A stretch of 33,824 nucleotides of DNA from positions 1 through 33,824 of the IMG/VR virus record IMGVR_UViG_3300002835_000629. One strand, given 5' to 3'. Numbering within the stretch: position 1 is the stretch's first letter; the number at the start of each line of letters is the position of its first letter. The position numbers and the translations under genes were made by a program. Positions 2,671 to 17,826 of this stretch are shown here, piece by piece. This stretch comes from a virus. The notes under the pieces are model-generated. The model made no database searches, was not told the DNA's origin, and was given only the letters and a program-made list of their open reading frames with translations.

Positions 2671-5600
2671 TTATATTAAGAAATTATCGCTATTACCTAT
2701 TATATACACTCTTAAAAACTCAAAAGATAAATCCATTTCTGTTTGCGGTAAAGCTATTGTTGTTGAATTGGCATCTCCCTTTCTCCATACATAAGCTATT
2801 TTTTTAGAATTTAGCACATATTCCACAACAAGTCCATGTGCAGACTCTGACAATACTTTAGCATATGTATAAATTTGATTATTAAATATTTCTACTACAT
2901 TTGTTAAACCAGAATAAGAATCATCTGAATAATCAAAAGAAGGTATTAGATAATCATATTTTTCATTTATATCAAAATTTCTAGAAGTATCGCTTACATA
3001 ACCACGGGCTATAGGATCTATATCCGCTAAAATATTTTTAGGTATTATTTCTGTTGTGTTTGTCTGATCGCTAGAAAATAAGATTGAAGGAGCTAAATTT
3101 TTATTATTTTCAATAAAATTAAACTTTGTAATCTCGTATTCTGCCGCCCCAATCTCAAACTCTGTTTGCGTTTTTTCTTTTATAGAAACAATACGATAAT
3201 TTTTTGAATACGCTAGTGAACTACCTGATTTAGAATCATATATCCACAATGTAGAAGCACCAATTGTTTGCATTAAAGATGTCTCTTCTTCGGTTAATCC
3301 TGATGTATTCAATACAATTTTAGTTCTAAAGTTACCATCTAAACCTGTAGATGCTACAGTAAATTTATAAATATAAGTAGAAGATAACTCATCTATTCTA
3401 GCGTCTGATATTCCAGAGTTTGATAATTCTGATTCTTTATTTAAAGTAGATGGAGATATTGATGAGTTAGGAATTATGAATGCTATAGTATCTCCAACTC
3501 CTATAAAATCATATTTATCGTCTAATACAATATCTGATCCAGAAACAGAAACTACTCTTCCGCCTTTTCTTCCGCTGACCTTCATTTCGTCAGCCACGGA
3601 TATCACATTTCCCGGTAATAATAATAAAGCTTCTGGACCAGCAGTAAAGCTTACCAACTCTTGTTCTACTTGATTTGTCACTAAAAACCATTGACCTATT
3701 CTTTTTGCTTGCGATTTAGATGTAACGCCAAAGCCAATAATTTCTTTTTCTACATAACCATATTTTCTTATGTTAATCTGATCTTCGACGTAAACAGTTT
3801 GATCTTTAAAATTATTTTTTTCATCTGAATATGTTATTTTTGCAACTGTATATCTCGTATCTTTAGATGAACTAGAATACTGAAAGATACCATCTTTTAC
3901 ATTAGAATTATTAAAGAAGTACGCTGGAGATTTTGGCCTATCACTATCAAAATTAACAAAATTATTTGACCAATAAACGAGACCCTTAAACACCGAAGCT
4001 ACGTTATTTAATAGATTAATAACATCTGTTTCACTATTTAATGAAATATTCGCTCTAAATCTTGGTTCTACGAGCGGTAAAAATCCCTGAAATTCAGCAG
4101 TTGCTTTTCCTTTATTTTCTGAAACAGTTGTGTAATTAGCTAAATCTTCATCTGAAAAACATGCTTGAGATTTTATATAAGAAATAAAACCCGTTAATGC
4201 CGAATTGTTTTGACTTCCAACTGTATTGCTAGATGAAACATTAGCTGGAGAAGAAACAGCGGTAATTAAAGCATTCAAAGATTTTGCATATCTATTTTCT
4301 AACTTTGTGTTAGTTTTTAAAAATTCTTTAACAGAAGGAAATAAACTACAAGCTCTATGAATTCCGAACTCATTTATTAATTGAATAGTGGCGCTTGTAT
4401 TATTTATTTTCGTAACTGAAACAATTATCTTTTTAAAACTTTTAGAAACATTTTTTGTCAAACCGTCTTCATCTTTTTCTATAAAACCTAAATTAACTAA
4501 ATCTATTTTAGATCCAACAGGAAAATATACTTTGAAGTCTATAGCTGAATCTGAACTTACGGTTATGCTGTTTTTACTTATAGAATCTATTTTTACTGGT
4601 TTATATCTAGATACGTTATCAGTTGGAACAAGTTCGTCGCAATATTTTGCGATTTTATACATGCTCCATTTATCAGCTAAACTTTCTTGGAATGAAAATT
4701 TTCCTAACCCATATCTGTAATTTGTTATTAAATCATACAGTATCCAAGCTGGATTATCTGTCCATCTTAAAACAGAATCAAATTCACCATTCCAAAATCC
4801 ATCATAAGTCTTAGATTCTGCATCATAATTTTCAGGAACCTTAATTTTTAATAACTTAAAATCGAATTGCCTATTTGGCGGCTGAGTAAAACCCCTTCCA
4901 TCAAAAACACTTAAAAAGTAACAACTATTTGGATATCTAAATTTTAAAGACGTAATCTCAGTAACAGAAGAAACTCCGATTATTCGACCAACTTTGTTTT
5001 CAGTAGCGCCGACTTTTTTATCTAAATTAAATACTTTTATATATGGACCAAGAGTAAAATCAAAGTCAGAAACGTCAAAAAATAAATCAAATTGATATGG
5101 CGAACTAGCTATTCCAGTTACTCTATGAACTATATAACAAGCATAATCATCTCTTAACTTGTATCCAATTTTAATTCCAAAATTTGTTGTGTTGGGTTTA
5201 GTATTTCCTTTTTTATCAAAAGTGTACAAAGCTTGAATTTTTAAACTAAGAATTAAAAAGTCAGTATTAATATCTTTTATTTCATGATAAGCTCCAAAGC
5301 ATGTTTGAAAATTAAAATCGCTAAAAGCTGAAACATCAAATGTTTCACTAGGTTGCGACTGCGTTCTTTGTATACTTGTATTGCTATAAAAATTTTGCTG
5401 ATATCTTGCAACCCCAGCATAAGGAGAATTTAAAAAATTTTGCTCTTCTTTACTTATTGTAGTTGATTGAGTCGTGTTTGAGACGTTTGGAACGTAACCC
5501 TTCACTACTCTTAATTTAGAAGTATGCGTTTGTGTCGATGTAAAAGTTATAGCATTTGCGTTTTCATTGAGACCATATAGAGTTTTATCTATTGAATAAG

Positions 5601-5997
5601 AAACCCCAGGATTAGAAAATAAAAAACTATCTGCTATAGAACTACCTTCTGAAGAAAGGTAAGACTGAAATTCTGTTCCCGCTCTTGAGAAAATTTCCAA
5701 TCTATTATAGTTGTAAGTATTAGTTAAATGATTTTTTATTGCGTAATCATTTAAATAAATGCCTTTAAATATTTCACTATTATTTTGACCCTCATCAAAA
5801 AGAACAAGCTCATTACCATCTGGATCAACTAATCCAGCCAATGGTCCTTCACCTATCAAATCTTGAACATAATACTTTGTTGTGGATTCAAGGATTCCAT
5901 TGTTTGAATTGGAGGCGAAAGGTGCAAACGAACCCTTCTTATTTAAGAAGTCGAGCATCTTTGTTCCAAACTGATCTAAACTAGAATTTTCTGTCAT
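2671..5997 (-). CDS. Tail tip host-specificity protein, lambda J-like (central fibre)
   Basis: This 1108-residue protein carries the hallmarks of the gpJ tail-tip family, which forms the trimeric hub closing the tail tube and contacting the host. Seen in sequence: an N-terminal segment with GEGPLAGLVDPDGNELVLFD and a nearby KGIYLNDYAI; the family-typical DNPAWILYDLITNYRYGLG starting at residue 414; WSNNFVNFDSDRPKSPAYFF near 675; and FEIGAAEYEITKFNFIE in the C-terminal third. The length is close to lambda gpJ (about 1130 residues). The ATG overlaps the stop of the upstream gpI-like gene as ATGA, so translation is probably coupled. Its position after L, K and I homologues and before a fibre gene supports the call. 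Receptor specificity cannot be read from the sequence. Confidence 0.93.
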   Translation of the reverse strand: MTENSSLDQFGTKMLDFLNKKGSFAPFASNSNNGILESTTKYYVQDLIGEGPLAGLVDPDGNELVLFDEGQNNSEIFKGIYLNDYAIKNHLTNTYNYNRLEIFSRAGTEFQSYLSSEGSSIADSFLFSNPGVSYSIDKTLYGLNENANAITFTSTQTHTSKLRVVKGYVPNVSNTTQSTTISKEEQNFLNSPYAGVARYQQNFYSNTSIQRTQSQPSETFDVSAFSDFNFQTCFGAYHEIKDINTDFLILSLKIQALYTFDKKGNTKPNTTNFGIKIGYKLRDDYACYIVHRVTGIASSPYQFDLFFDVSDFDFTLGPYIKVFNLDKKVGATENKVGRIIGVSSVTEITSLKFRYPNSCYFLSVFDGRGFTQPPNRQFDFKLLKIKVPENYDAESKTYDGFWNGEFDSVLRWTDNPAWILYDLITNYRYGLGKFSFQESLADKWSMYKIAKYCDELVPTDNVSRYKPVKIDSISKNSITVSSDSAIDFKVYFPVGSKIDLVNLGFIEKDEDGLTKNVSKSFKKIIVSVTKINNTSATIQLINEFGIHRACSLFPSVKEFLKTNTKLENRYAKSLNALITAVSSPANVSSSNTVGSQNNSALTGFISYIKSQACFSDEDLANYTTVSENKGKATAEFQGFLPLVEPRFRANISLNSETDVINLLNNVASVFKGLVYWSNNFVNFDSDRPKSPAYFFNNSNVKDGIFQYSSSSKDTRYTVAKITYSDEKNNFKDQTVYVEDQINIRKYGYVEKEIIGFGVTSKSQAKRIGQWFLVTNQVEQELVSFTAGPEALLLLPGNVISVADEMKVSGRKGGRVVSVSGSDIVLDDKYDFIGVGDTIAFIIPNSSISPSTLNKESELSNSGISDARIDELSSTYIYKFTVASTGLDGNFRTKIVLNTSGLTEEETSLMQTIGASTLWIYDSKSGSSLAYSKNYRIVSIKEKTQTEFEIGAAEYEITKFNFIENNKNLAPSILFSSDQTNTTEIIPKNILADIDPIARGYVSDTSRNFDINEKYDYLIPSFDYSDDSYSGLTNVVEIFNNQIYTYAKVLSESAHGLVVEYVLNSKKIAYVWRKGDANSTTIALPQTEMDLSFEFLRVYIIGNSDNFLI

Positions 5998-6608
5998 ATT
6001 TTTGATGAGTAATTTCCTACGCCGATTTCTGTTTGAAAGGTGTTTTCTACGGTCGCTTTATAAGACGAATCAAAATTAAAAAGCACAGCATTTATAACAT
6101 TTGTGCCTACCTTTAATCTTCCATATCCTAATTGAACTGGAGTATTTCTTGCGGCCACGTTATCTTTTCCAGAAAATATAAAAGAAGAAGTCTTAATTTG
6201 TTTTGGATCTCCCGGCTTTAAAAGCATTGAAATTAAATAACTTATTCCTATACTAATAGCTAAAAATAAAATAAACTTTCCTACTCCAGCCCAAGTTAAT
6301 TTACCAGCAGCAACAACAATTGCTCCAATTAAACTTCCAATAAAATTAAATCCAGAACAAATAAAAATTTCTATTTCAGAAGCTAGTTTTATAAAATTAT
6401 CTAGTTCTGTTTCATTTTCATGGTAAAGAACTCCATCAATAACCAAAGCCAAACCGTATTCTTTTTTTACAAGTTTATTCATTTTAACCGAATAATCCCT
6501 TGTATTTGCTGCCATGCATTTAAAAATATCTTTTAAGGCATTCGCTTTAACAAAAAACGAATCACAAAACATTTTCTTTAATAGTCCATGTAATATAATT
6601 TTTTTCAT
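5994..6608 (-). CDS. Tail assembly protein, lambda I-like (second copy)
   Basis: The 204-residue product belongs to the gpI tail assembly family, which acts with K and J at the tail tip. It starts MKKIILHGLLKKMFCDSF. It has two hydrophobic segments at about residues 85-135 (with FILFLAISIGISYLISMLL) and the conserved C-terminal block KTSSFIFSGKDNVAARNTP followed by LGYGRLKVGTNVI. It is a clear paralogue of the gene just upstream, sharing the MKxxILHGLL start, the TSSxIFSxKxN block and the YGRLxxGT block. Both junctions are 4-nt ATGA overlaps (with J downstream and with the first copy upstream), so the three genes are probably translationally coupled. Confidence 0.85.
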   Translation of the reverse strand: MKKIILHGLLKKMFCDSFFVKANALKDIFKCMAANTRDYSVKMNKLVKKEYGLALVIDGVLYHENETELDNFIKLASEIEIFICSGFNFIGSLIGAIVVAAGKLTWAGVGKFILFLAISIGISYLISMLLKPGDPKQIKTSSFIFSGKDNVAARNTPVQLGYGRLKVGTNVINAVLFNFDSSYKATVENTFQTEIGVGNYSSKI

Positions 6609-7240
6609 TTTATTGAAGCTGTTATAAGACCAACTGATGTTGTCCCAGTATTAAGAATTTGAGGAGATTGATTATTTAATATATAACTTAAATCAAAATT
6701 AAATCCCACACTGCTAAGAACATGGGTTCCTATTCTCAACCTACCATATGAAACAGGTATTGGAGTATTTCTATTTGCCGCATTCTCTTTCGAAGAAAAT
6801 ATATAAGAAGATGTTTGAACTTGCTTTGGATTTTTCGGACTCAATAATTTATTAATTAAAAAACTTATACCAAAAGAAATAACAGACATTATTATTGTAT
6901 TAACAAGAAAGACACCTATTTTTCCAGCCACAGTTGTTGCTGTTATACTTGTAAAAAGAATTGTAGAAGAAGCAAAAGCCGCCAAAGAAAGAACTGGAAC
7001 CAATTCTATGACTTTAGCATTTCTAATTTTTTGATTTAAAACGGCACCATTATCTACAATAAAACCATCAACCACAATCAAAAGACCATCAAATTTTTCT
7101 CTTAGTTTGTTAATTTGTTTTCCAAAGTTATCGAAGTTTGCCGATATGCAAGATATCAATTCATCAAAAGAATCAACTTTTGCTTCGAAAGATGCACAAG
7201 CTATCTTCTGTAATAGGCCATGTAAAATAACTTGTTTCAT
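6605..7240 (-). CDS. Tail assembly protein, lambda I-like (first copy)
   Basis: This 211-residue protein is the first of two tandem gpI-like paralogues. It starts MKQVILHGLLQKIACASF, matching the start of its downstream copy, which fixes the ATG at 7240 even though it lies 68 nt inside the JAB gene. Two membrane-like hydrophobic stretches lie at about residues 80-145. The conserved block QTSSYIFSSKENAANRNTP plus YGRLRIGTHVL occupies about residues 150-190. A conserved AGTGTAA element lies 9 nt upstream of the start, inside the JAB coding sequence. Most siphophages carry one gpI; why two exist here is unknown (possible hetero-oligomer or specialised chaperoning). Confidence 0.85.
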   Translation of the reverse strand: MKQVILHGLLQKIACASFEAKVDSFDELISCISANFDNFGKQINKLREKFDGLLIVVDGFIVDNGAVLNQKIRNAKVIELVPVLSLAAFASSTILFTSITATTVAGKIGVFLVNTIIMSVISFGISFLINKLLSPKNPKQVQTSSYIFSSKENAANRNTPIPVSYGRLRIGTHVLSSVGFNFDLSYILNNQSPQILNTGTTSVGLITASIK

Positions 7241-7598
7241 GTTTAATATTTACACTTAAAAATCGATCCCAATTTAAACTATATATTATAATAGGAATAT
7301 CGTAATTTTTAATAAAAAAGATATCCTCTTTAGATGGATTCAATAAATGTAGGTGGCTATGGAAAGAAAATAAAAACTGTTTTCTTATTAGTTTAAGAAA
7401 GAAATCGTTAGGAGGAAAAAATCTATGACAACTCGGATTATCACTTGTATATTTATAAATGTTATAATCTTTATCTACTAATCCTCCAGATTCAAATGGA
7501 TAATTAGATAATAAAAAAGTTTTAATCTCTTCTAAAGCTTTGTTAAGTTTGATAATTGTAAGGTCTTGTTCCTGGAAATCCTCCAAAAGGTAATCCAT
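7173..7598 (-). CDS. JAB/MPN metallopeptidase-like tail tip protein (lambda K N-terminal half)
   Basis: The 141-residue product resembles the JAB (JAMM) domain of lambda gpK. Motif residues visible are Glu36 in YPFESGG, His80 and His82 in FSFHSHLHLL, and Ser89/Asp92 in NPSKED, matching E...HxH...S-x-x-D, although the loop after HxH is one residue shorter than usual. Lambda gpK also has a C-terminal NlpC/P60 domain; that half is absent here. The gene overlaps L by 56 nt and the first I copy by 68 nt, so more than a quarter of it is dual-coded. It has one of the few purine-rich leaders in the window (GGAAAGGG upstream of ATG). Order L-K-I-I-J supports the assignment. The domain probably acts in tip maturation or cell-wall passage. 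Confidence 0.75.
   Translation of the reverse strand: MDYLLEDFQEQDLTIIKLNKALEEIKTFLLSNYPFESGGLVDKDYNIYKYTSDNPSCHRFFPPNDFFLKLIRKQFLFSFHSHLHLLNPSKEDIFFIKNYDIPIIIYSLNWDRFLSVNIKHETSYFTWPITEDSLCIFRSKS
7250..7262 (-). promoter_or_regulatory. AGTGTAA element upstream of first gpI-like gene
   Basis: On the minus strand TTTTTAAGTGTAA ends 9 nt before ATG 7240. It lies inside the JAB coding sequence (codons for F-L-S-V-N) and is identical over 13 bases to the element before the tape measure gene. Confidence 0.4.
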
Positions 7599-8619
7599 CT
7601 TTATGCCCTTTCCATCTAAAAGCGCAGCCCTTTATATTCTTAGAGCAAGAATCTTTTATCCAAAACTCTTTATTTAATTTAGGATCTTTATTAATATTAG
7701 TAAGTATACAAACATATACAGATATTGAAATATTGTCTTCTGAAAATTGAAATTTGCTTCCAAAGAAATCGTAATTTACAGAATCCGCATAAACAACAAA
7801 TTCACCAGAATTGTAAGTTTTAGTTGAATCCCAAAATGCTTTATAAGCTTGATTTGGTATCTGTAATCCATATCCTTGCGGAGAGTAAAATAATTTATTA
7901 TTTTCGTCTGCAAATGGAATTCCTAAATTTGGAACTTTTTCTCCAAAAATATCACTTGCTGTTTTTGTGATTACTTGATTATTAGAATCTGTATAAGTTA
8001 TTGTTTGAGGCTGTCCAGACTGATCTTTCCAAGGAAGCTTTCCATAGTTGCATCCGCATCCTCTATAAGACCAAGAACATAGATTGTCTGATATTTTTCT
8101 ATTAGGTAAAAACTGATTCTCAAAATCTAAAGGACTTGAAAGCTCAAATTCTATAATATACTTATTCTCTGTAGTCTTACGATTTATAATATAATTTTCT
8201 TCAAAGAAAGACTGACCATACCCTTGCACAGAATTTCTTTTTGTTCTGTATCCGAAAAAAGGATTTTTGCCATCTGAAAAGTTTTCGTCATCAAGATTCT
8301 TTACGAATACTTTTAAACGTTTTAATCTTGAATTGACTAAATCATTTTTATTTTTAATTACATTAGTTATCAGACCATTTATGTTTGCCAATCTTATAGA
8401 TGGTCTGCTTTGTTTTCCATCGGATGAAAACTCAAATCCACCATACTCAATAGGAGCAGGTGTATATTGATTTCCTTTATAAACTATATATTTATTAAAA
8501 TTTTTACCAGCATGAAATCGCAATATACCAGTAGATTCATCTATGTAAATCTCAAAAAGATCTACAAAAGAATCAGGATCTAAATCTATTAAAGACTGAG
8601 TTGAAATTAAATCTGCCAT
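7543..8619 (-). CDS. Tail tip Fe-S protein, lambda L-like, with CBM-like insertion
   Basis: The 358-residue protein matches the gpL tail tip family. The N-terminal half (LFEIYIDESTGILRFHAGKN, then APIEYGGFEFSSDGK) is the typical start. The C-terminal domain has the cysteine pairs Cys181/Cys188 (plus Cys190) and Cys325/Cys332, each pair seven residues apart as in lambda gpL, where four cysteines hold an iron-sulfur cluster. It ends with the signature LPFGGFPGTRPY. Between the two pairs lie about 137 residues instead of a short loop. That insert contains FWDSTKTYNSGEFVVY, then YVCILTN and FWIKD, resembling a CBM5/12-type carbohydrate-binding module. It starts 1 bp after the stop of the upstream lectin-like gene and overlaps the JAB gene downstream. 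Confidence 0.88.
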   Translation of the reverse strand: MADLISTQSLIDLDPDSFVDLFEIYIDESTGILRFHAGKNFNKYIVYKGNQYTPAPIEYGGFEFSSDGKQSRPSIRLANINGLITNVIKNKNDLVNSRLKRLKVFVKNLDDENFSDGKNPFFGYRTKRNSVQGYGQSFFEENYIINRKTTENKYIIEFELSSPLDFENQFLPNRKISDNLCSWSYRGCGCNYGKLPWKDQSGQPQTITYTDSNNQVITKTASDIFGEKVPNLGIPFADENNKLFYSPQGYGLQIPNQAYKAFWDSTKTYNSGEFVVYADSVNYDFFGSKFQFSEDNISISVYVCILTNINKDPKLNKEFWIKDSCSKNIKGCAFRWKGHKDGLPFGGFPGTRPYNYQT

Positions 8620-8620
8620 A

Positions 8621-10243
8621 TTATGTAGATGTTTTCTTTATTTTACCAACTATATTAATTTTATCAGTAATAGAATAATACATATCAGTAGATTGAAATT
8701 CTACTGGCGAAGAAAAGGTTATTTTTTCTTGATATTTTCTAGAAAGGTAAGATAAAACTTTAGGTATATCCGACGATTTTAAATCTGTATATACCAAAAC
8801 TTCATATATTTTATTGGAATAATAGCACCTTGCAACTCCATTTATATATTTTATAGGAGATCCTAAAATTATTTTAATTGTTTTGTCTTGCAACATATTA
8901 AGAATATCTTGATTTAATTGATTATTGGAAATAAAAGAAGATATTTCTGATCCGCAACTATAAGTGGTAGACGCTTGGCTAGTATTAGATTCATTTCTAG
9001 AAATCGTTTTTTCTATTCCATGATAAAAAATACCAAACTTTGTTTTATTTTTAATTTCATTTTTTACAACATCTGTACCATACTGATCTTGCATATAACT
9101 TCTACTACCTATTCTATTATACGAAACATCGATAGGTAAAGATGCAAACTGCTCTGATAAAAACTTTCCTTCTGTACTGAAACCTACATTATTTAAAGTT
9201 TCTTTTTGATCAATAGTTATTTTTTTACCTATATTAAATTTAGTTCCGAATGAAGGATTTGAAAAAACAGTATTATAATCTGTAAAACTTGACAAAGACT
9301 GTTCTGTTGTAATAGATAATTTATTCGAACCATCTAATTCAACATCTTGAATTGTTGCGCTTGATCCGACTGGAAAAACAATCAAACTATTTTTTGCAGA
9401 AGAAGGTGTATTTATTTCTTTTGTTATAGATAATGTATAAATATTTGAAGGATCTTTTTGAGTTATTGTAGCATTGATGCCAAAATAATTATTTGGATGA
9501 GATATGTTAATTTTATCTCCAACTTGAAACTCATTATGGTAAAAACCTCCTGTTATTTGTGTAGATAAATCATCTTTTTGATAAGATATTTGCCCAGTGT
9601 TGTATGAGGCATAACCATCTGCTAAATCTGTTTGAGCTACATAAAAAATATAAATACTAGAATTAATATCTGCAAAATTAATCGATTTTTCTAAATAAAA
9701 ACCGTCAGCCACAGAGGCTGAATTTCTCAATTCAAGATAATATTTATTTAAATTTAACTCTGAATCTAATTGTGGAGTTAAAGAAGCTGAAGAAACAAAT
9801 GTAAAATTTCCAACATTATTGCCATCATTTAAGATAGTGGAACTACTAACGCCTCCAGTAAAAACATCAGAAAATTGTAAAAGTAGAGATCTATTATAAA
9901 TATCTAAATCTCCATAAGGATTGTACTGTCCAATAGTAAAATTACACTGATTAGAAACGTCAGTTTTGAAATCTATAGCATATCCACAATCGTTTTCATT
10001 TTTTATTTCAGTTGTAGTATGATTTGTTATGCTTGCCGACGCTAAAGATAGCTCTGAGCTATTTATGTTGGCTTTAGCTAATACAACTTTAGGTTTATAA
10101 CTTTTTTCTCCAAAAGATCCCCCCTGACCACCTTGCAATATTATCAAAGAAGACAATTCAGGTTTCTCCTCTTGTTCTTTTTTAGTTATTTCTGAAAGAA
10201 TTTCTTTTTCTACCACTAAATTTTGAGTTTGTATAAAAGGCAT
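8621..10243 (-). CDS. Tail structural protein with possible concanavalin-A-like lectin fold
   Basis: This 540-residue protein has no family that I recognise over its whole length. It is rich in Ser, Asn and beta-prone segments. Near the N terminus is a glycine-rich ILQGGQGGSFGE. A segment with IYIFYVAQTDLADGY and the C-terminal block IYEVLVYTDLKSSDIPKVL followed by SYLSRKYQEK (about residues 473-507) resemble strands and the closing helix of LamG/concanavalin-A-like domains, where 'E(V/I)xVY...L...E...V..YL..KY' recurs. A glycan-binding tail decoration is therefore plausible. It lies between the gpM-like gene (2 bp gap) and the L homologue (1 bp gap), so it is very likely part of the distal tail. 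The function assignment is inference. Confidence 0.6.
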   Translation of the reverse strand: MPFIQTQNLVVEKEILSEITKKEQEEKPELSSLIILQGGQGGSFGEKSYKPKVVLAKANINSSELSLASASITNHTTTEIKNENDCGYAIDFKTDVSNQCNFTIGQYNPYGDLDIYNRSLLLQFSDVFTGGVSSSTILNDGNNVGNFTFVSSASLTPQLDSELNLNKYYLELRNSASVADGFYLEKSINFADINSSIYIFYVAQTDLADGYASYNTGQISYQKDDLSTQITGGFYHNEFQVGDKINISHPNNYFGINATITQKDPSNIYTLSITKEINTPSSAKNSLIVFPVGSSATIQDVELDGSNKLSITTEQSLSSFTDYNTVFSNPSFGTKFNIGKKITIDQKETLNNVGFSTEGKFLSEQFASLPIDVSYNRIGSRSYMQDQYGTDVVKNEIKNKTKFGIFYHGIEKTISRNESNTSQASTTYSCGSEISSFISNNQLNQDILNMLQDKTIKIILGSPIKYINGVARCYYSNKIYEVLVYTDLKSSDIPKVLSYLSRKYQEKITFSSPVEFQSTDMYYSITDKINIVGKIKKTST

Positions 10244-10245
10244 AA

Positions 10246-13086
10246 TTAAGAAGATTTTAAAGGATATACAGAACCTTGAACTTTAAAAAGATTAGCCAAT
10301 ACATAAGGAACAGAAGGCTTATTTACTTCTGCGTCTTGTGTATATTCTAGATTAGCAGTATAATATCCAGAACCAAAAGCTGTTGCTGGACTTCCATAAA
10401 CTAATCCAGATGGAATAACCGCTGGATCAAAGAAATCATAAAAAATAGAAGCCCCAACCGTAGAAGTATAACTTTTATTGATTATTTGTTGAGCGCTAAG
10501 ATTAAAATTTTCAAATAAATTATTTATATCTTGTGTATTGTATTTGGTATTTGTTGGAATATCAAATATTCCAGACGCTGACAATGAAGATTGTCTAAAA
10601 ACTTCTTTTAGTGTTGAAAATTTATTATTTGTTACATTAAGAACGTCTCTTATTCCAATATTATCACCCGCTCCTCCTCCAGCTATAATATAAGAACTTT
10701 TATCCAAATAAAGATTTAAATCGCCACTACAATTTACATACAAGGCATTTTTTCCTGTTTTTACTGGATCGGAATCTGTCGATAACTTACTTGTGCTTCC
10801 ACCTTTAGCATAGATATTTGAGTTATTAAATAAATTAATAGTTAAACCACTATTTAAACTAGAATAATTTCCTGTTATTATGCAGCAGCCTGTATTGTAT
10901 ACATCATAATTATCAGATATACTATCGGCACCGATAAACACATTATCTAAGTTTAAAACTATTCCTGAATAAAAATCAAACCTATCTGCATATGTAAAGT
11001 TTTTCTTAATGTAATCATAAACATCTAAATAATCAAACTTTTGAGATTTAATTGTCCTGCTTTCAATCTTCTTTGTTAATCTTAAATTTGGTGGCGTAGA
11101 TCCAATTTGATTTAAAACACCTGTCGTTAATCCACTGAATACTGCCTCATAACCTTTAACCGGATCTGAAGAAGGCCAAGAATTTATTTCACTAACTCCA
11201 CTTGCAAAAACGGCTTGACCAGTGGTATTAGTATATGTATCATTCATGCCACTTATTGTGACATAATAATCTGTATTAAAACTTAAATCTGTAAAAAGCA
11301 TTTCATATGTAGTAATTCCTGGAGTTCCAACGTCATATAAATAGTTTGAAGTATTTAATGGAATCGCTACGTTTTTTCCTGTTACAGACAAAAGAGGAGA
11401 AAATCCACTATTCATTGATATTCTTCCAGAAAATCCTGTAAAGAAATATCCAGATTCAGGAAGTGTCCAACGAGTTAAAAGAGCTAATTTATTTTCATAT
11501 AAAACAGGCGAAGCTACGCAGTTTTGAACTCCAGATAAGAAGTTATAAGGAGCCGCCGATCCAGCACTTACTTTTGATCCTGTATAATATATTTGAAAAT
11601 CATTTCCAACTGTTCCAAAATTATCTTGGGATTGCCCCACATTAAAATATCCATATATTTGATCTGGACCTGTTCTATTTTGTGGGTGTTGAAATATTAT
11701 ATTAAAATACCCCGTACTACCCGCTCTTACATCAATCGTCGCACTTTCTGAAGAATCGTGATAAAAGAAATTTGTTGTTGGAGTAGATTGTTCTACTTTA
11801 TTTAAAATAGAATATGAAGCTGGATATCTTAATCCACTATTTATAATACCATATTCTCTACTTGTTTGAAACCCTGCTGGTAAAAAACCAAAGTCAAAAC
11901 CAGTTGGAGTTAAATAAGTTTTAAAATCGAATACTCTGTCAAAAGAAAATTTAGACTCAATGAATCTTGCGGTTATAGAATTATTGTCTAAGAAATTATA
12001 AGTATGACTCCATTCTGGACAATAAAAAGATCTTGTTCCAGTAAAGAATGTGTACATGTCATAATCAAAAAGATCAATTCCATTATGGTTTTCCAAGAAA
12101 TGTAAAATTGCTTTCGCTTGTTTATCTGATCTGTTATTAAAAGTTAAAGAAAAATCAAAAGAATTTGAGTTAATACCGTCGTTCTGATATAAATAAAAAT
12201 TTCCTAAATCGTTTTTATAACTATTAGAATTAAATTGAAGCTGCTGTGCATTGTCTGGCTGAAAATAAAATTTTTGAGTCCAAAACGAATTGCTAGTTGC
12301 TGGACTTATTCCTACAACAGGTTCATCTCCAGCGTCTCCGCTAAAATAATAAAATCCATTTTTTGATCCTGCATTATTCAAGAAAACATAATCATCTTTA
12401 GAATATGGTTTATTATTGTCAAAATCACATGCTCCGTATGGTATTAATTTTTCTTTCCATTCTGTTATTGAAACAAATGGAGATTCCAAGCTTAGAGTGA
12501 CAGAATTTAAATCAACCATTTCAAAATTATTATCTATAGTTTTAAGATAATAAGGTCTTACTTTTGAATGCGGAGGAAACAAAGCAGTCTCAATCGGCAA
12601 CAATCCTTGACCGCTAGACTGGGCAGGTTTTACAAATGATTGTTGATAAAAATGATTTAAAGCTTTTGCTTCAGTATCTGTTATATTACTAAATTGTAAT
12701 TTCGCGTCTACTTGAACCACGTTCTCACTTTTACCAATGATTACAGTATAATCATCTTGAAATTTATTTTCATAAAAATTAGCTTTAAAATTTACGCTTG
12801 ATCCATAAGTAGGAACAAAGAAAAATTTATTTGTCCAATAATAACCACTATTGTTTCCATCTGGACGATTAAAGAAAAAGTTTTCTCCAGAAGGTAAATT
12901 AGTTTTACAATAAAAATATCCAGTAGTAAATGGCGCAGCGACTACTCTTGAGTTTCCCTTGTCATCTATGTATGTGCCGGGATTTATTCCAGTATAATAT
13001 ACAACATCAAATTCATTAAAAGTCACTCCCGTTTCGTAAAACGGAATGTTTGGCATCAATATTCTATAATCGTTAATCGCTTTCAT
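10246..13086 (-). CDS. Multidomain tail protein with two gpM-like/CBM-like modules
   Basis: The 946-residue protein starts with two repeated modules about 182 residues apart. Each has a CBM5/12-like segment (GYFYCKTN...YYWTNKFFF at about 22-95; KPYSKDDYVFL...SFWTQKFYF at about 218-276). Each then has a block resembling the lambda minor tail protein M family (LQFSNITDTEAKALNHF near 128-145; LTFNNRSDKQAKAILHF near 310-327). Residues about 440-520 look like an immunoglobulin-type domain and 520-640 a fibronectin III-type domain. The C-terminal 250 residues resemble fibre beta-structure, including a glycine-rich IIAGGGAGDN. The start overlaps the upstream gene as ATGA. Lambda M lies between tape measure and L, as here. 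The M assignment is moderate; the module repeat is clear. Confidence 0.65.
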   Translation of the reverse strand: MKAINDYRILMPNIPFYETGVTFNEFDVVYYTGINPGTYIDDKGNSRVVAAPFTTGYFYCKTNLPSGENFFFNRPDGNNSGYYWTNKFFFVPTYGSSVNFKANFYENKFQDDYTVIIGKSENVVQVDAKLQFSNITDTEAKALNHFYQQSFVKPAQSSGQGLLPIETALFPPHSKVRPYYLKTIDNNFEMVDLNSVTLSLESPFVSITEWKEKLIPYGACDFDNNKPYSKDDYVFLNNAGSKNGFYYFSGDAGDEPVVGISPATSNSFWTQKFYFQPDNAQQLQFNSNSYKNDLGNFYLYQNDGINSNSFDFSLTFNNRSDKQAKAILHFLENHNGIDLFDYDMYTFFTGTRSFYCPEWSHTYNFLDNNSITARFIESKFSFDRVFDFKTYLTPTGFDFGFLPAGFQTSREYGIINSGLRYPASYSILNKVEQSTPTTNFFYHDSSESATIDVRAGSTGYFNIIFQHPQNRTGPDQIYGYFNVGQSQDNFGTVGNDFQIYYTGSKVSAGSAAPYNFLSGVQNCVASPVLYENKLALLTRWTLPESGYFFTGFSGRISMNSGFSPLLSVTGKNVAIPLNTSNYLYDVGTPGITTYEMLFTDLSFNTDYYVTISGMNDTYTNTTGQAVFASGVSEINSWPSSDPVKGYEAVFSGLTTGVLNQIGSTPPNLRLTKKIESRTIKSQKFDYLDVYDYIKKNFTYADRFDFYSGIVLNLDNVFIGADSISDNYDVYNTGCCIITGNYSSLNSGLTINLFNNSNIYAKGGSTSKLSTDSDPVKTGKNALYVNCSGDLNLYLDKSSYIIAGGGAGDNIGIRDVLNVTNNKFSTLKEVFRQSSLSASGIFDIPTNTKYNTQDINNLFENFNLSAQQIINKSYTSTVGASIFYDFFDPAVIPSGLVYGSPATAFGSGYYTANLEYTQDAEVNKPSVPYVLANLFKVQGSVYPLKSS

Positions 13087-14714
13087 GGTGTAAAAACATC
13101 ATAAACTTTTGAACCATTGGCAATAAATGGGAAATTTATTAAATAAATATTTTCGCTATCAGGTATAAACTCATCATTATTACGAGCGTAATTCATACGC
13201 GCAAGCAAATATTTCCATGTGCAATACGCTTTTAGACTATAACATGTTTTTGTATAAGATGGCGATATAATTTCTATACTTGGACTTTCAAATAAAGAAC
13301 ATTGAAAATCGCCATTCACTTCTGTATGTATATAATTAGTCCCTCTCGCTTGAAAGGCTAATTTATTTAGAACAGTAGGATCGTCTTCATATGAACATTC
13401 GTCTGAATTTGCAAAATTCGGAAATGGCAAAGGATCTAAAGCACTAGCATCTAAAACATTTTGATTTACTCCCACAGAACACATAAAAAGGATTGGAACT
13501 GTCAGATTATTTGCGATTTTATTGGCCGCAAGGGAGACATCATTATATTCTACTGTTTGTTGTAGATTTTTAGATTGTATTATATATTGTTTTCCATCTA
13601 TTATTGAATTGTAATCAGCTGCTATTTTTATTTGAGATATTATATGTTTTTTATTTGAACAAGCATTTGGCAAATCATATGGTGTAACATATATATTAAA
13701 CCAAATTAAATCAGGAGCCAATTCAGGAGCAGGAGGAATAATTGGTTGAACAAGCTCAGGTGGAGGCGGCATTGGTGGCTTTGGATTTGTTTGGCCTACT
13801 GGAGGAGTAGGAATACTTATATTTATAATAGGTTTTGAAACTTCAACAATTGCTGGATCATTAGTTCCAAAAGGTATATTAATTATATTTCTCTTTTTAC
13901 TTATGTTTTGGATCATCTTTATAGATCCAACTCCATAACTAGAATCAGAGATCGCATAATTTTGGTCCACAATTATTCCTGTCAAACTCATATTAGTATA
14001 AACTGAAGGATTTTGCGCGTCTTTTAAAACAGCATTAAATACCGCATCGTTTCCATGAATATCTAAAACTCCATCAATATTATTTGCAGTCACACCAAAC
14101 TGAGCGTTAACCTGCCTCAAAGCTACTCTTAAAGGTATACTTTGTTTTACTCTTAAAAGAGGCTGTCTTTCTACGGTAAAAGAATAATTAAAATTGCTTA
14201 CAATAAAATCATCATAATTATCAGGATAAGAAGATCTATTATTAGTTATTATATAACTTGATAGACCATTTAATGTCGCCAACTTATTTTTAACTTTTGT
14301 TGATCCATCAGCAGGACTAAATAAATTATGAACATCATTTAAATTTGTATCCAAAGCCTTGATTCCGTGATAAAAATCAAAACTTGTACTAACTGCAATT
14401 GGCTGATAAGGTTCTACACTAAAACTTAAATCAGTCAAAAATGCACTTGGAATATTAAAATTATTAAAAGAAACCGAAATAGGAACATCAGATTGATTCT
14501 CAAGTTTTAGAAAGTCTGGCAACGCTCCTGTCAAATAAAACTCTGTAGAAAACTTTCCTTGAATAGGCCCATTTGGGGCGTAATCAATAAGATTGCCATT
14601 AATATCAAAAACAGGAACAGTATTAGCCTGAAGACCAAACGATGCTGAATTAGAAGGGAAAATAGAATCGTTTAATCTTATCGCTGTCGTTTCAAATGTT
14701 AAAAATTTAGCCAT
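13083..14714 (-). CDS. Tail-tube-like protein with proline hinge and C-terminal Cys domain
   Basis: The 543-residue protein has three parts. Residues 1 to about 290 are beta-rich and contain AFLTDLSFSVEPYQPIAVST (about 92-111) and SFTVERQPLLRVKQSIPLRV (about 176-195), which parallel segments of the major tail tube protein and of the 368-residue protein upstream. Residues about 300-340 form a proline-rich hinge (PTPPVGQTNPKPPMPPPPEL). The C-terminal 200 residues hold several cysteines and are not recognised. The ATG overlaps the stop of the upstream gene by one base (TAATG) and its own stop overlaps the next gene as ATGA. It may be a distal tail (Dit-like) or tip adaptor protein. The tube relationship is inferred by eye only. 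Confidence 0.55.
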   Translation of the reverse strand: MAKFLTFETTAIRLNDSIFPSNSASFGLQANTVPVFDINGNLIDYAPNGPIQGKFSTEFYLTGALPDFLKLENQSDVPISVSFNNFNIPSAFLTDLSFSVEPYQPIAVSTSFDFYHGIKALDTNLNDVHNLFSPADGSTKVKNKLATLNGLSSYIITNNRSSYPDNYDDFIVSNFNYSFTVERQPLLRVKQSIPLRVALRQVNAQFGVTANNIDGVLDIHGNDAVFNAVLKDAQNPSVYTNMSLTGIIVDQNYAISDSSYGVGSIKMIQNISKKRNIINIPFGTNDPAIVEVSKPIINISIPTPPVGQTNPKPPMPPPPELVQPIIPPAPELAPDLIWFNIYVTPYDLPNACSNKKHIISQIKIAADYNSIIDGKQYIIQSKNLQQTVEYNDVSLAANKIANNLTVPILFMCSVGVNQNVLDASALDPLPFPNFANSDECSYEDDPTVLNKLAFQARGTNYIHTEVNGDFQCSLFESPSIEIISPSYTKTCYSLKAYCTWKYLLARMNYARNNDEFIPDSENIYLINFPFIANGSKVYDVFTP

Positions 14715-16687
14715 TACTGTGAAATGTAAGAACCAGCACTTGAATCGGTATCTGAAACGTAAAAATATTCTGCCATTGTTGTTATGTTCATTGCTCCAGT
14801 CAAAGGAGTAAAGACCGTTCCGCCAGAACCATCATTTCTTAAAGCATAGGCTACCCAACTTCCATAATCGTAACGATTAAAAGCTAATTTGGTAACTGAG
14901 TTATTAAATTTATTTCCTACTGAAAAGTTATTTATTCTAGCTTTTAAATTTAAAAATCCTTGACCAGATATAACTCCAGAAACATAACAATGGTTTGATA
15001 GAGTTGGAGAATCGTAGTAATCATTAGAATAAGCATCCCAAACTTGAAAAAATCTTTTATTAACACTAGTAGAAATTCCACTAACAAATGTTGTTCCACC
15101 AACATTGTTTAGCGTCATTCCGCTAAAATTATTAAATACTAAATATCCAGTTCCATCAGATATTCCGCTATTTAATTGGCAAATAAAATCAACGCCAATT
15201 ATTCTCCCTGAAGCTGGAAAAAGAGCATGGTACGCTGCGCTTCCAGATTGGTTGAATCCATAATCTATATTATCTAAATTTAAATAAACTGCACCGCCCG
15301 TTAAATTCGATGCGCGATGAATATCAATAAACTTACCATAACAAAAATTATCATCACTAGTATATAATCCTTTGTTATTTATATCTCCTTGATCTGAAAT
15401 GGTGACTATGTTTCTTGAAGCGTCATAAACATTAGAAGCATTTCCAGTTTGAAAGAAGAATTGTCCTACTCTTGTTGTTGGACCAGAAGCTGGGCCAGAA
15501 GGACCAACTGTAGCTTTATCAAAATCGTATCCAATTATAAATGAGTTAAAATCACCTGATCCATAGGCAGTTGCAACATAATCAACTGGACCACTTGAAG
15601 TAGCATAATTACTTTGCATTCTTGAAAATGCAGATTGAGAATAACTTTGGTAACGAGATAAAAATGAAGAAGTTCCAGTAACATCTAATGGATATGTAGG
15701 ATCTATTCCTCCTAATCCTAATCTTCCGTTAGCCAAATCAAAAATTACAGGATCAGTGGTATCAACAGTCGCCGCTGTCTTGTTTCTTGCAAAATGTAAT
15801 TGCGAGACTGGCTGATTATACATTATTGAAGCCGTAAGATTTGGAAGTGTTCCTGTATTTCTAAAAAATAAATTAGGAACACCAGCATCTTCTATCAATA
15901 ATGTTTTATAAGGAGAACCGTCAACGACAACATTTGAAATCGTTAGTCTTGCGTCTGTGTTTCTATTTGTGTTTCCAACTCTTACTGTAGCATCATCTTT
16001 GTCTACGAATACAGCACCACTAAGACCAAAAAATGCTCCAGTAATTGTATTTGCTCCTGTATTATATCCTATATAAACATCAGAATCAAAATTAATTCCA
16101 CTAGTACTTAATGTAATATCTCCAGCGTTAGTATTATCATCGAAACTAAATCTTATGCCTGTTGCTACAGAAAACTGAATATTAACATCCGAATCTACTG
16201 TATCATAAGAATATAAAGACCCATCCGTAATTAAAATAGATCCATCATTTGAAATTAAAAGACTATTGTTTTGAATATTTGTGCTAAATACTCCGCTGAT
16301 AGAAAAATTATTGTATCCATCTTTTAAAAGATACCAAGAACCTGTTTCATCATAAAATCTAATTGCGCCACTTGCTCCAGTATGATTCTGAAGAGTGAAA
16401 ACATTATTAATTCCAGAAGCCCCACTAATATGAAACGCTGACAATGGAGAAAAAGATCCAGTTGGCGATATCGCAATATATCTATTACTATTAACTATTC
16501 GTATTACTGGCGTATCTTGAATTCCAAACAACATGTCATTTCCAGAAACAGGTTGTACAAAATTAAAGTTTTTTGACAAATCCTCAAAAGATACAACTTG
16601 AGAAGCTGCGCCCGAATAGCTCAAAAGAAACAAAGCGTTTTGAGGTATCGAAGATACTTGATCTAGATCTGGAATTGTTTCTGCCAT
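14714..16687 (-). CDS. Putative tail fibre/appendage protein
   Basis: The 657-residue protein begins with IPDLDQVSSIPQNALFLLSY and VVSFEDLSKNF, the layout common at the N terminus of phage tail fibres ('dLp..t.l...d.l.......t..V.f.dL'). The middle is repetitive and beta-rich. Near residues 318-336 is GRLGLGGIDPTYPLDVTGT, a form of the GIGTxxPxxxLDVxG motif that often comes before the tip of fibres. No C-terminal S74 autoprotease/chaperone domain is visible. The last 180 residues have a jelly-roll-like beta character. The start at 16687 follows a 32-bp spacer with the AGTGTAA element. Placing a fibre between two tube-like proteins upstream of M and L is unusual. A role as a tail-shaft or tip appendage is inference. 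Confidence 0.65.
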   Translation of the reverse strand: MAETIPDLDQVSSIPQNALFLLSYSGAASQVVSFEDLSKNFNFVQPVSGNDMLFGIQDTPVIRIVNSNRYIAISPTGSFSPLSAFHISGASGINNVFTLQNHTGASGAIRFYDETGSWYLLKDGYNNFSISGVFSTNIQNNSLLISNDGSILITDGSLYSYDTVDSDVNIQFSVATGIRFSFDDNTNAGDITLSTSGINFDSDVYIGYNTGANTITGAFFGLSGAVFVDKDDATVRVGNTNRNTDARLTISNVVVDGSPYKTLLIEDAGVPNLFFRNTGTLPNLTASIMYNQPVSQLHFARNKTAATVDTTDPVIFDLANGRLGLGGIDPTYPLDVTGTSSFLSRYQSYSQSAFSRMQSNYATSSGPVDYVATAYGSGDFNSFIIGYDFDKATVGPSGPASGPTTRVGQFFFQTGNASNVYDASRNIVTISDQGDINNKGLYTSDDNFCYGKFIDIHRASNLTGGAVYLNLDNIDYGFNQSGSAAYHALFPASGRIIGVDFICQLNSGISDGTGYLVFNNFSGMTLNNVGGTTFVSGISTSVNKRFFQVWDAYSNDYYDSPTLSNHCYVSGVISGQGFLNLKARINNFSVGNKFNNSVTKLAFNRYDYGSWVAYALRNDGSGGTVFTPLTGAMNITTMAEYFYVSDTDSSAGSYISQ

Positions 16688-16719: not shown

Positions 16720-17826
16720 TTACTTGTTTTGTTCTTCAAAAGCTTGTGCAGCAGATTGATAAATAATTTGATCATTTTTATATTGATTAAAAAAGATATC
16801 AGAGTTCTGAGAAGTTTTATTAACATATGTTATATAACTTAATTTTACATTGGTTACGTCATCAGCAGACGCTGAAACTTGTTCAGAAACTAGCTTGCTA
16901 GTATCTGGAGAATAAGAAAAACTAAATAATTTAATATAATTATAAGATTCTGAACTTTCTGGAATCGGTCCTACAAAATTACTATTAAAACCTGGCTTTC
17001 TATTAAATAACAAAGGAGTTCCATCGCCAGCCTCTAAAGGAGTTAATAATGGACCATTGAAAGTAAAAGTTTGTGTATAAATTGGTTGATCTTCGAAAAC
17101 TGTTCCAAAAACATCGATTGTAAATGGATCTGCAATACCAGTTACTAACATATCTGTCATTCTTTTTGTTTCGTAATCATCCACTTCAAGGGTGAAATCC
17201 ACCATAACTTCAATAGGATATTTTATAGAAACCTGAATTGGCTTTATAGAATTTACGCCATATATAACATCGTAATTTATATTACTAGAGAAAGAAAAAG
17301 ATTTAACTCTATTTGTACTACTGTTTCTGCAAGACAAAACAATGTTTGCAGGATATATTGGTATATCTTCTGCATCATTATAATCACCTGTTGCATTCAA
17401 TGTTCCATCTATTCCTACAAATTGAGGATTAGAAGAGTTTGATAAATACATTCCGCTTCCAATGTCTCCATAAACTTTTATACCAATATTAGTTTGCGGA
17501 ACGTCTCCATAAGATACATCATATGAATAAGAAGATAAATAACCATCTTCAAATCCAAATATCTTATCTCCATAATTTAAAGAGCCTCGCAACCTTTCCA
17601 CAACTCCTGTAAAAGGATTAAAGATATCAGCAAAAGCAATATTTCTACTTATAGAAAAATCAGCCTGTGGAACATCGGCGATAACAGTTTTAATCGCTCC
17701 TTGACCAAGCACATTTATTGGCATAACTGAATGAGTATACGATCCATCAACAGAAGTAACACCTTTTAGTTTTACTCCTTCCAAAAATACTTTTTGATTA
17801 TATTGTGCTTGAGCTTTATTTTTCAT
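16720..17826 (-). CDS. Tail-tube-like structural protein after tape measure
   Basis: This 368-residue protein starts 3 bp after the tape measure stop. It has no enzymatic motif. It resembles the major tail tube protein of this genome in two segments: DGYLSSYSYDVSYGDVPQTN (near residues 94-115; compare NGFVTNYQFTASVGEVPTAS at residue 181 of the tube protein) and SFSFSSNINYDVIYG followed by IKPIQVSIKYPIEV (about 175-205; compare SFGFSVPLARTTLSRLGALF at 303). The order and spacing of the two segments are the same as in the 543-residue protein downstream. I infer a tube-fold protein forming the distal end of the tail (Dit-like or tube-to-tip adaptor). Confidence 0.6.
   Translation of the reverse strand: MKNKAQAQYNQKVFLEGVKLKGVTSVDGSYTHSVMPINVLGQGAIKTVIADVPQADFSISRNIAFADIFNPFTGVVERLRGSLNYGDKIFGFEDGYLSSYSYDVSYGDVPQTNIGIKVYGDIGSGMYLSNSSNPQFVGIDGTLNATGDYNDAEDIPIYPANIVLSCRNSSTNRVKSFSFSSNINYDVIYGVNSIKPIQVSIKYPIEVMVDFTLEVDDYETKRMTDMLVTGIADPFTIDVFGTVFEDQPIYTQTFTFNGPLLTPLEAGDGTPLLFNRKPGFNSNFVGPIPESSESYNYIKLFSFSYSPDTSKLVSEQVSASADDVTNVKLSYITYVNKTSQNSDIFFNQYKNDQIIYQSAAQAFEEQNK

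Follow-up and report, generated by a model that had tools for sequence, protein, structure and literature searches.

The gene at positions 7543–8619 (minus strand, stop codon included) of the IMG/VR virus record IMGVR_UViG_3300002835_000629 raises the question of what a long additional stretch of residues does between the cysteines of the iron-sulfur (Fe-S) domain of a tail-tip protein of the lambda gpL type. The whole record (33,824 bases, 29–34% G+C) was analysed and is referred to here as the window. The 358-codon open reading frame (ORF) matches PF05100 (Phage_tail_L) at 2.5e-40 with 138.5 bits, exceeding the cut-off of 25, and does so in two stretches with an unmatched middle; it also matches the minor tail protein family phrog_18 (4.8e-57) and, by sequence, lambda L (8iyk, 5.3e-19). 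Judged by these matches, the 358-residue product is clearly a homologue of lambda gpL. The stretch between its cysteine pairs is an insert, in which a variable hairpin is followed by a module predicted to have the CBM5/12-like fold (CBM, carbohydrate-binding module) of phage tail fibres, and we lean, if only modestly, towards the reading that on the gpL-type tip this module contacts a glycan of the host surface weakly and multivalently, its sugar binding being putative.

The N-terminal gpL core, delimited by the PF05100 match and the alignment with lambda, comprises residues 1–180 (8080–8619, minus strand, as are all parts of the gene given below), and the Fe-S domain is split into a first half of residues 178–194 (8038–8088) and a second half of residues 325–358 (7546–7647). 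The protein has cysteines at 181, 188, 190, 304, 325 and 332. In lambda gpL, the cluster ligands are Cys173, Cys182, Cys205 and Cys212 (PMC10721106; here and below, published statements are given as they stand in the accessible parts of the papers), with spacings of 9, 23 and 7 when the positions are recomputed from NC_001416. In an alignment with lambda and three isolates, Cys181, Cys190, Cys325 and Cys332 of the window protein fall on these four ligands, the lambda Cys182 column being occupied by Cys190 and not by Cys188. Each of the four is kept in all 31 relatives compared, and Cys188 in 23 of them; among more divergent relatives, the C-x8-C spacing is found in 35 of 35, with Cys (24), Tyr (8) or Phe (3) in the Cys188 column. 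A first-pass annotation of this DNA had paired Cys181 with Cys188 and seen in them the seven-residue spacing of lambda, a ligand pair that is ruled out by the lambda alignment and by the conservation of Cys190: the true first pair is Cys181/Cys190, with a spacing of 9. Its second pair, Cys325/Cys332, does have the seven-residue spacing and matches lambda 205/212. The putative ligands of the 4Fe-4S cluster are thus Cys181 (8077–8079), Cys190 (8050–8052), Cys325 (7645–7647) and Cys332 (7624–7626).

The distance from the second to the third ligand cysteine (Cys 2 and Cys 3) is 135 positions in the window protein, 23 in lambda and 22–28 in ten isolate L proteins, which were chosen from earlier match lists and not at random. 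This leaves 134 residues between the two cysteines, vs 22 in lambda; the annotation had counted 137 from Cys188, so that the long insert stands while its boundary moves to Cys190. A survey of 398 genomes gave 28 places in 18 genomes, and the spacing was measurable by pattern in 12 of 35 survey loci, the distance from Cys 2 to Cys 3 being 23 positions in all 12. Two gpL-type ORFs, L100 and L101 (421 and 428 residues), whose PF05100 stretches break near profile position 92–94, have an insert elsewhere than in the Fe-S loop, namely in the N-terminal domain.

The insert between Cys 2 and Cys 3 is real, and not a chance feature, because none of the relatives examined lacks it and purifying selection acts on it: the ratio of non-synonymous to synonymous differences (pN/pS), obtained with seven relatives, is 0.23–0.36 over residues 229–324 and 0.01–0.11 in the core. 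It is bipartite, with a hairpin of approximately 34 residues (195–228; 7936–8037), which we call slot 1, and a compact beta module of approximately 70 residues (about 253–324; 7648–7863), which we call slot 2. Both are separated by a conserved NLGIPFADENNK stretch (residues 229–252; 7864–7935) that adjoins lambda GPAVADEYDQPT in the alignment. In an AlphaFold2 model built with 26 relatives, most of the insert has a predicted local distance difference test (pLDDT) value of about 70–92, the low-confidence parts being residues 280–297 (below 50) and the ends. The slot 1 hairpin has a mean identity of 31% among 21 members of the window clade. The insert is modelled as a compact unit, not as part of the L core, and it gave CBM5/12-like matches, as the annotation had anticipated.

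The slot 2 module has a W-x5-Y-x2-G-E-F-V-x-Y ... FW pattern, and the W...Y...G-E-x-V-x-Y ... F-W motif, on which the comparison with CBM5/12 had been based, is indeed present in the translated sequence. All 31 relatives share Tyr269, Gly272 and Trp320; the Trp263 column is occupied by Trp in 21 and by Tyr in 10 of them. When the model was compared with the Protein Data Bank (PDB) by VIA-align, 24 of the 33 rows listed were on the insert, and 22 of those 24 (about seven distinct proteins) are chitinases, chitin deacetylases or chitin-binding domains, with low Z values (3.1–4.7, for 42–65 residues at 0.9–5.5 Å; for example 4nyu, Z 4.7, 46 residues, 0.9 Å). The remaining two are 8kec_a, which belongs to a cyanophage A-1(L) tail fibre, and 7b5h_AE, from the baseplate of an Anabaena contractile injection system; the latter is also matched weakly by the module profile. 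Residues 134–184 of 8kec_a gave the best structural match on the insert (Z 5.3, 49 residues, 1.4 Å). Low Z values are expected, because the domain has only about 45 residues, and they are insufficient alone.

A profile-profile test, independent of the fold comparison, provides the stronger evidence. An hhalign comparison of 47 slot 2 modules with six tail-fibre CBM5/12-like modules gave a probability of 95.5 and a score of 40.6 over 42 of 45 columns; 200 column shuffles reached at most 7.9 and 17.3, respectively, and the reversed alignment a probability of 0.6. Against five chitinase modules 18 columns were aligned, with a probability of 56.6; used alone, the second half of the profile gave 64.2 for the tail fibres and 0.3 for the chitinases. 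The pattern used to find modules is biased to their first half and recovered 12 of 30 CBM_5_12 loci, of which six entered the tail-fibre set and five the chitinase set, the intermediate L284 being left out. Of the six proteins from which the tail-fibre modules come, four were scanned, each of which matches tail-fibre PHROGs. With these modules, which are PF02839 matches and in several cases stand beside collagen-like repeats, the window module has a likeness over its whole profile, sharing W-x5-Y-x2-GD-x-V ... Y-x-C ... N-x2-P-x-N-T-x2-W; it differs in that its second strand is followed by an added loop of some 20 residues and in that it is housed in L, not in a fibre. Model and profiles support a CBM5/12-like fold of the tail-fibre kind for slot 2, without the chitin-binding site of the enzymes.

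Some side results of these searches can be recorded here. The CBM5/12-like modules of L280, L282, L286, L289, L300 and L304 have Y-x-C ... PPN-T/A-x-W, several directly precede collagen-like repeats, and the four scanned are in bacterial genomes and have tail-fibre PHROG matches. A PDB profile search with the slot 2 module alone returned nothing below E 0.1, and a family scan of genome contigs found none among 187 stretches. Two SusD homologues, obtained at 0.004–0.005 with a narrower module profile, were taken as chance matches, as was Marine virus AG-345-E15, where no L protein was found among the ORFs of more than 80 residues on the matched strand. The L proteins of HK140 and phiKO2 were discarded as insert carriers, their weak matches being to the core and the Cys motif alone, and the CBM_5 label in PMC8540738 is a running number there and does not denote family 5.

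Slot 1 is where the relatives hold the most unexpected part of the finding, a lectin fold. IMG/VR was scanned for relatives of the insert (80 of 131 stretches kept) and of the C-terminal part (80 of 96 kept), and the divergent set of 40 loci comprises 35 distinct proteins after five identical copies were dropped. Slot 1 has 22–52 residues in 16 of these and 283–420 in 18, one being unmeasured by pattern, and the gap from Cys 2 to Cys 3 is 124–158 in 16 and 386–526 in 19. A concanavalin A-like (ConA-like) lectin jelly roll of about 280–420 residues replaces the hairpin in 19 of the 35 (L267:1625–2557, L248:1622–2506, L272:1334–2524, L178:1247–2506 and 15 more), sitting before the CBM5/12-like module and between Cys 2 and Cys 3. 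This assignment comes from the model of the long slot 1 of L267, which, built alone from 15 relatives, has a mean pLDDT of 88.8 and a predicted TM-score (pTM) of 0.87. Its best VIA-align match is the cyanophage Pan3 tailspike 9vyh (Z 16.9, 206 residues, 3.2 Å). Next come AbnA, with its arabinan-binding domain (5hon, Z 16.0–16.3), and other jelly rolls, which include trypanosomal sialidases and, from clostridial neurotoxins, the lectin-like half of the receptor-binding domain; we take all of these to belong to the ConA-like lectin superfamily. The best PDB sequence-profile match of the long slot 1 is the minor pilin PilC (E 0.0019), within its last 107 residues, and PilC was described as having a concanavalin A-like lectin module on its C-terminal side that binds glycans (PMC9934059). 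Among the 11 Pfam families listed for 15 members of the long slot 1 there is no lectin family. The jelly roll of 9vyh and 5hon is thus present in slot 1 of the relatives and absent from the window protein. In L177, L178 and L253, the lectin-like stretch is approximately 100 residues longer than in 13 others (413–420 vs 283–322), with the extra segment around SGELAIGQVVSGTNIP.

When a tree was built from 56 rows of the N-terminal core, the 19 lectin-bearing proteins formed a single clade (95/98), distinct from both the window clade of 22 and a second short-slot clade of 11, although long branches leave the join to the outgroup unsure. The insert was found in all 52 insert-family members of this tree, and each of the three insert-bearing groups has the slot 2 module, which is therefore probably older than the lectin. 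Within the module, residues 279–300 (7720–7785, DSVNYDFFGSKFQFSEDNISIS) form a loop that is not confidently modelled and lies where the tail-fibre modules have a short turn; it is frozen, with a pN/pS of 0–0.06, synonymous differences being as common there as elsewhere. In the second clade this loop has different letters, with a mean identity of 34%. Between the window and one relative, L008, the insert alone looks exchanged: the two are identical at 529 of 546 sites in codons 1–182, at 347 of 420 in codons 183–322 and at 40 of 42 in codons 323–336, and third positions differ at 15 of 182 in the first segment vs 42 of 140 in the second. The sharp drop in DNA identity (L008:5547–5966 against window 7654–8073) is confined to the insert between the cysteines; the segment limits were set after inspecting the identity profile, which makes the p-values indicative. 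This is the one clear pair, since L013 and L017 show a milder dip and L009/L011 and L017/L019 no clear dip.

How could such an insert serve the virion? We propose that the surface loop of the Fe-S domain between Cys 2 and Cys 3 acts as a holder for accessory domains, which in the window virus would bear the variable hairpin and the tail-fibre-type CBM5/12-like module with its conserved 22-residue loop. In lambda, the Fe-S domain of gpL is on the outer surface of the tip (PMC10721106), in agreement with the annotation, which had placed the insert on the tip, and on this virion the insert would occupy the corresponding position. By analogy with the lambda gpL trimer, three copies of the module would be arranged around the outside of the conical tip, where they could contact host glycans beside the central fibre J. 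The frozen loop may seat or pin the module on the tip, with the variable faces meeting the host. Contact with a host glycan is indicated because the module is fast-changing and exchangeable, has a tail-fibre fold and is joined by a lectin in relatives. Peptidoglycan, which the annotation had named as a possible target, finds no support here.

For RcGTA, roseophage R4C and Pseudomonas phage JBD30, the literature already describes a domain that lies between the Cys pairs. The RcGTA hub (Rcc01696, g13) has a domain at 168–249 between Fe-S segments 143–167 and 250–263 (PMC7296036), and the R4C hub (vBDshSR4C_014) one at 162–243 between segments 142–161 and 244–266 (PMC10276861). The RcGTA insert, for which a similarity to T4 gp27 and to the insertion domain of LKA1 gp49 was noted, was named oligosaccharide-binding by fold likeness (PMC7296036), and the name was adopted for R4C (PMC10276861). 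Both hubs resemble the window protein in that their gpL-type Fe-S domain is split into two segments by a domain of its own between the Cys pairs and, as far as can be compared from their descriptions, differ in the insert: theirs has about 82 residues, whereas that of the window has about 134, which comprise a CBM5/12-like module and one further slot. Chains of RcGTA and R4C are not among the 33 VIA-align rows listed, which excludes nothing about a shared fold. The upper baseplate protein gp50 of JBD30, with Cys147, Cys156, Cys238 and Cys245 (PMC11445458), has the same spacings of 9 and 7, with 82 positions between Cys 2 and Cys 3 vs 135; a metal site is described, and no sugar-binding role of this stretch is mentioned in the accessible text. 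Lambda gpL shares with the window protein the core fold family, the four Cys ligands and the gene order L-K-I-J, and is without the insert. For a CBM5/12-like module or a ConA-like lectin at the gpL site we found no paper, in a search that mostly did not extend to subscription journals.

Taken with these parallels, the Fe-S loop of gpL-type proteins may tentatively be regarded as a common site at which glycan-binding folds of unrelated kinds are docked, with the cluster stapling together the ends of the inserted domain. The oligosaccharide-binding domains of RcGTA and R4C, the CBM5/12-like module of the window and the ConA-like lectin plus module of its relatives would be instances of it, and domains could be swapped without disturbing the tip. 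The function of the gpL Fe-S cluster was called still to be characterized (PMC10721106); on this view the cluster would gain a concrete role, and L would be a second host-range protein beside J.

Several points nevertheless weigh against a sugar-binding module. Its role is a prediction from fold and sequence, and the oligosaccharide-binding name of the RcGTA and R4C domains is, in the accessible accounts, likewise founded on fold likeness. The structural Z values are 3–5, under 8, and the core of the AlphaFold2 model is poor, with a mean pLDDT of 48.3. Pfam CBM_5_12 (PF02839) gave 13.9 bits for the window module, not reaching the cut-off of 26.2, in a match that spans 17 of 44 positions, half the profile; at E up to 1 the family matched 12 of the 47 modules, the best at 0.0018. 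The exposed Trp pair of chitinase-type modules has a role in binding, and it was found in none of the 47 phage modules vs five of five chitinase modules, all of which have a Y-x-A-x-W-W motif (with Trp for Tyr in two). Of the claim that the insert is CBM5/12-like, the fold and the match to the tail-fibre profile are supported, and the missed Pfam cut-off, the poor chitinase match and the absent Trp pair speak against the rest. Moreover, the most conserved part of the module is one loop, which fits contact with the virion as well as contact with the host.

This last point also suits a structural module, in which the CBM5/12-like fold would be a spacer or anchor docking L to J, to the distal tail ring or to side fibres, with no sugar contact, a reading to which we give appreciable but limited credence. 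The top structural match, 8kec_a 134–184, lies inside the joint domain 111–215 of the A-1(L) short tail fibre (the identity of this chain was deduced from its length and the published residue ranges), a domain that anchors the fibre to the baseplate wedges (PMC10966104); the fold, and weakly also the profile, match the baseplate protein 7b5h_AE, the loop of 22 residues is frozen, and the modules lack the aromatic sugar site. A purely anchoring part would not readily be expected, however, to evolve faster than the core outside the loop and to look exchanged in one pair, to have an unrelated lectin fold beside it in relatives, or to stand at a site whose lambda counterpart is on the outer surface. 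It is very unlikely that the insert is an elaboration of the L core and not a separate domain: although it is present in every insert-family member of the core tree and was never lost as sampled, lambda and the ten isolate L proteins do without it, it is modelled as a compact unit that matches stand-alone tail-fibre modules, and its slot 1 varies from 22 to 420 residues. A true chitin- or GlcNAc-binding CBM5/12 module acquired from a bacterial chitinase is extremely improbable. The fold rows are mostly chitinases and chitin deacetylases, and both kinds of module begin with the motif half W-x5-Y-x2-G-(D/E)-x-V, but the chitinase profile is matched over few columns and hardly at all in its second half, the module is below the Pfam cut-off, and none of the 47 modules has Trp, Tyr or Phe at any of the three positions that follow the Y-V-C equivalent; with the Trp pair absent and the chitinase profile match poor, we rejected this origin. 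Glycan contact by a tail-fibre-type module thus remains the reading that we prefer.

If it is correct, the L ring of lambda-like tips is a site at which viruses infecting uncultured bacteria gain and exchange domains that grip surfaces, and the gpL inter-Cys site may be where viruses fit differing tools for holding on to the host surface. L would then have to be read together with J in sequence-based host-range prediction, and a role of the Fe-S cluster in stapling the ends of the inserted domain is suggested.

The surroundings of the gene are lambda-like, in the order tape measure protein (17830–27216, with PF10145) ... L, K-position ORF, two I-type genes and J, K being assigned by position alone. 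No phage isolate covered 80% of the window L protein, of relative L183 or of relative L267, a megablast of window 2671–16687 against 50,697 phage records gave no match, and no tRNA gene was found in the 33,824-base record. The ORF at the K position (7173–7598, minus strand, 141 residues) overlaps the end of the L gene and has no Pfam, PHROG or PDB match; it contains HSHLHLLNPSKED, presumably reminiscent of the JAMM peptidase motif, and leaves little space for an NlpC/P60 part. On the same strand follow two gpI-type tail assembly proteins, at 6605–7240 (phrog_32, 3.7e-17) and 5994–6608 (phrog_32, 1.3e-14), and a gpJ-type central tail fibre protein of 1108 residues at 2671–5997 (phrog_31, 8.8e-115). 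The tandem I-type proteins are 41% identical over 208 columns; at this place the lambda annotation has a single I gene.

Between L and the tape measure gene, the minus-strand ORFs 8621–10243, 13083–14714, 14714–16687 and 16720–17826 (540, 543, 657 and 368 residues) have no Pfam family above the cut-off. The 946-residue ORF at 10246–13086 (minus strand) has a sub-threshold match to PF05939 (Phage_min_tail) at residues 272–377, with 35.2 bits vs a cut-off of 39, and looks like a gpM-type ring protein embedded in a far longer protein. Lambda has M alone between H and L, vs these several large ORFs in the window.

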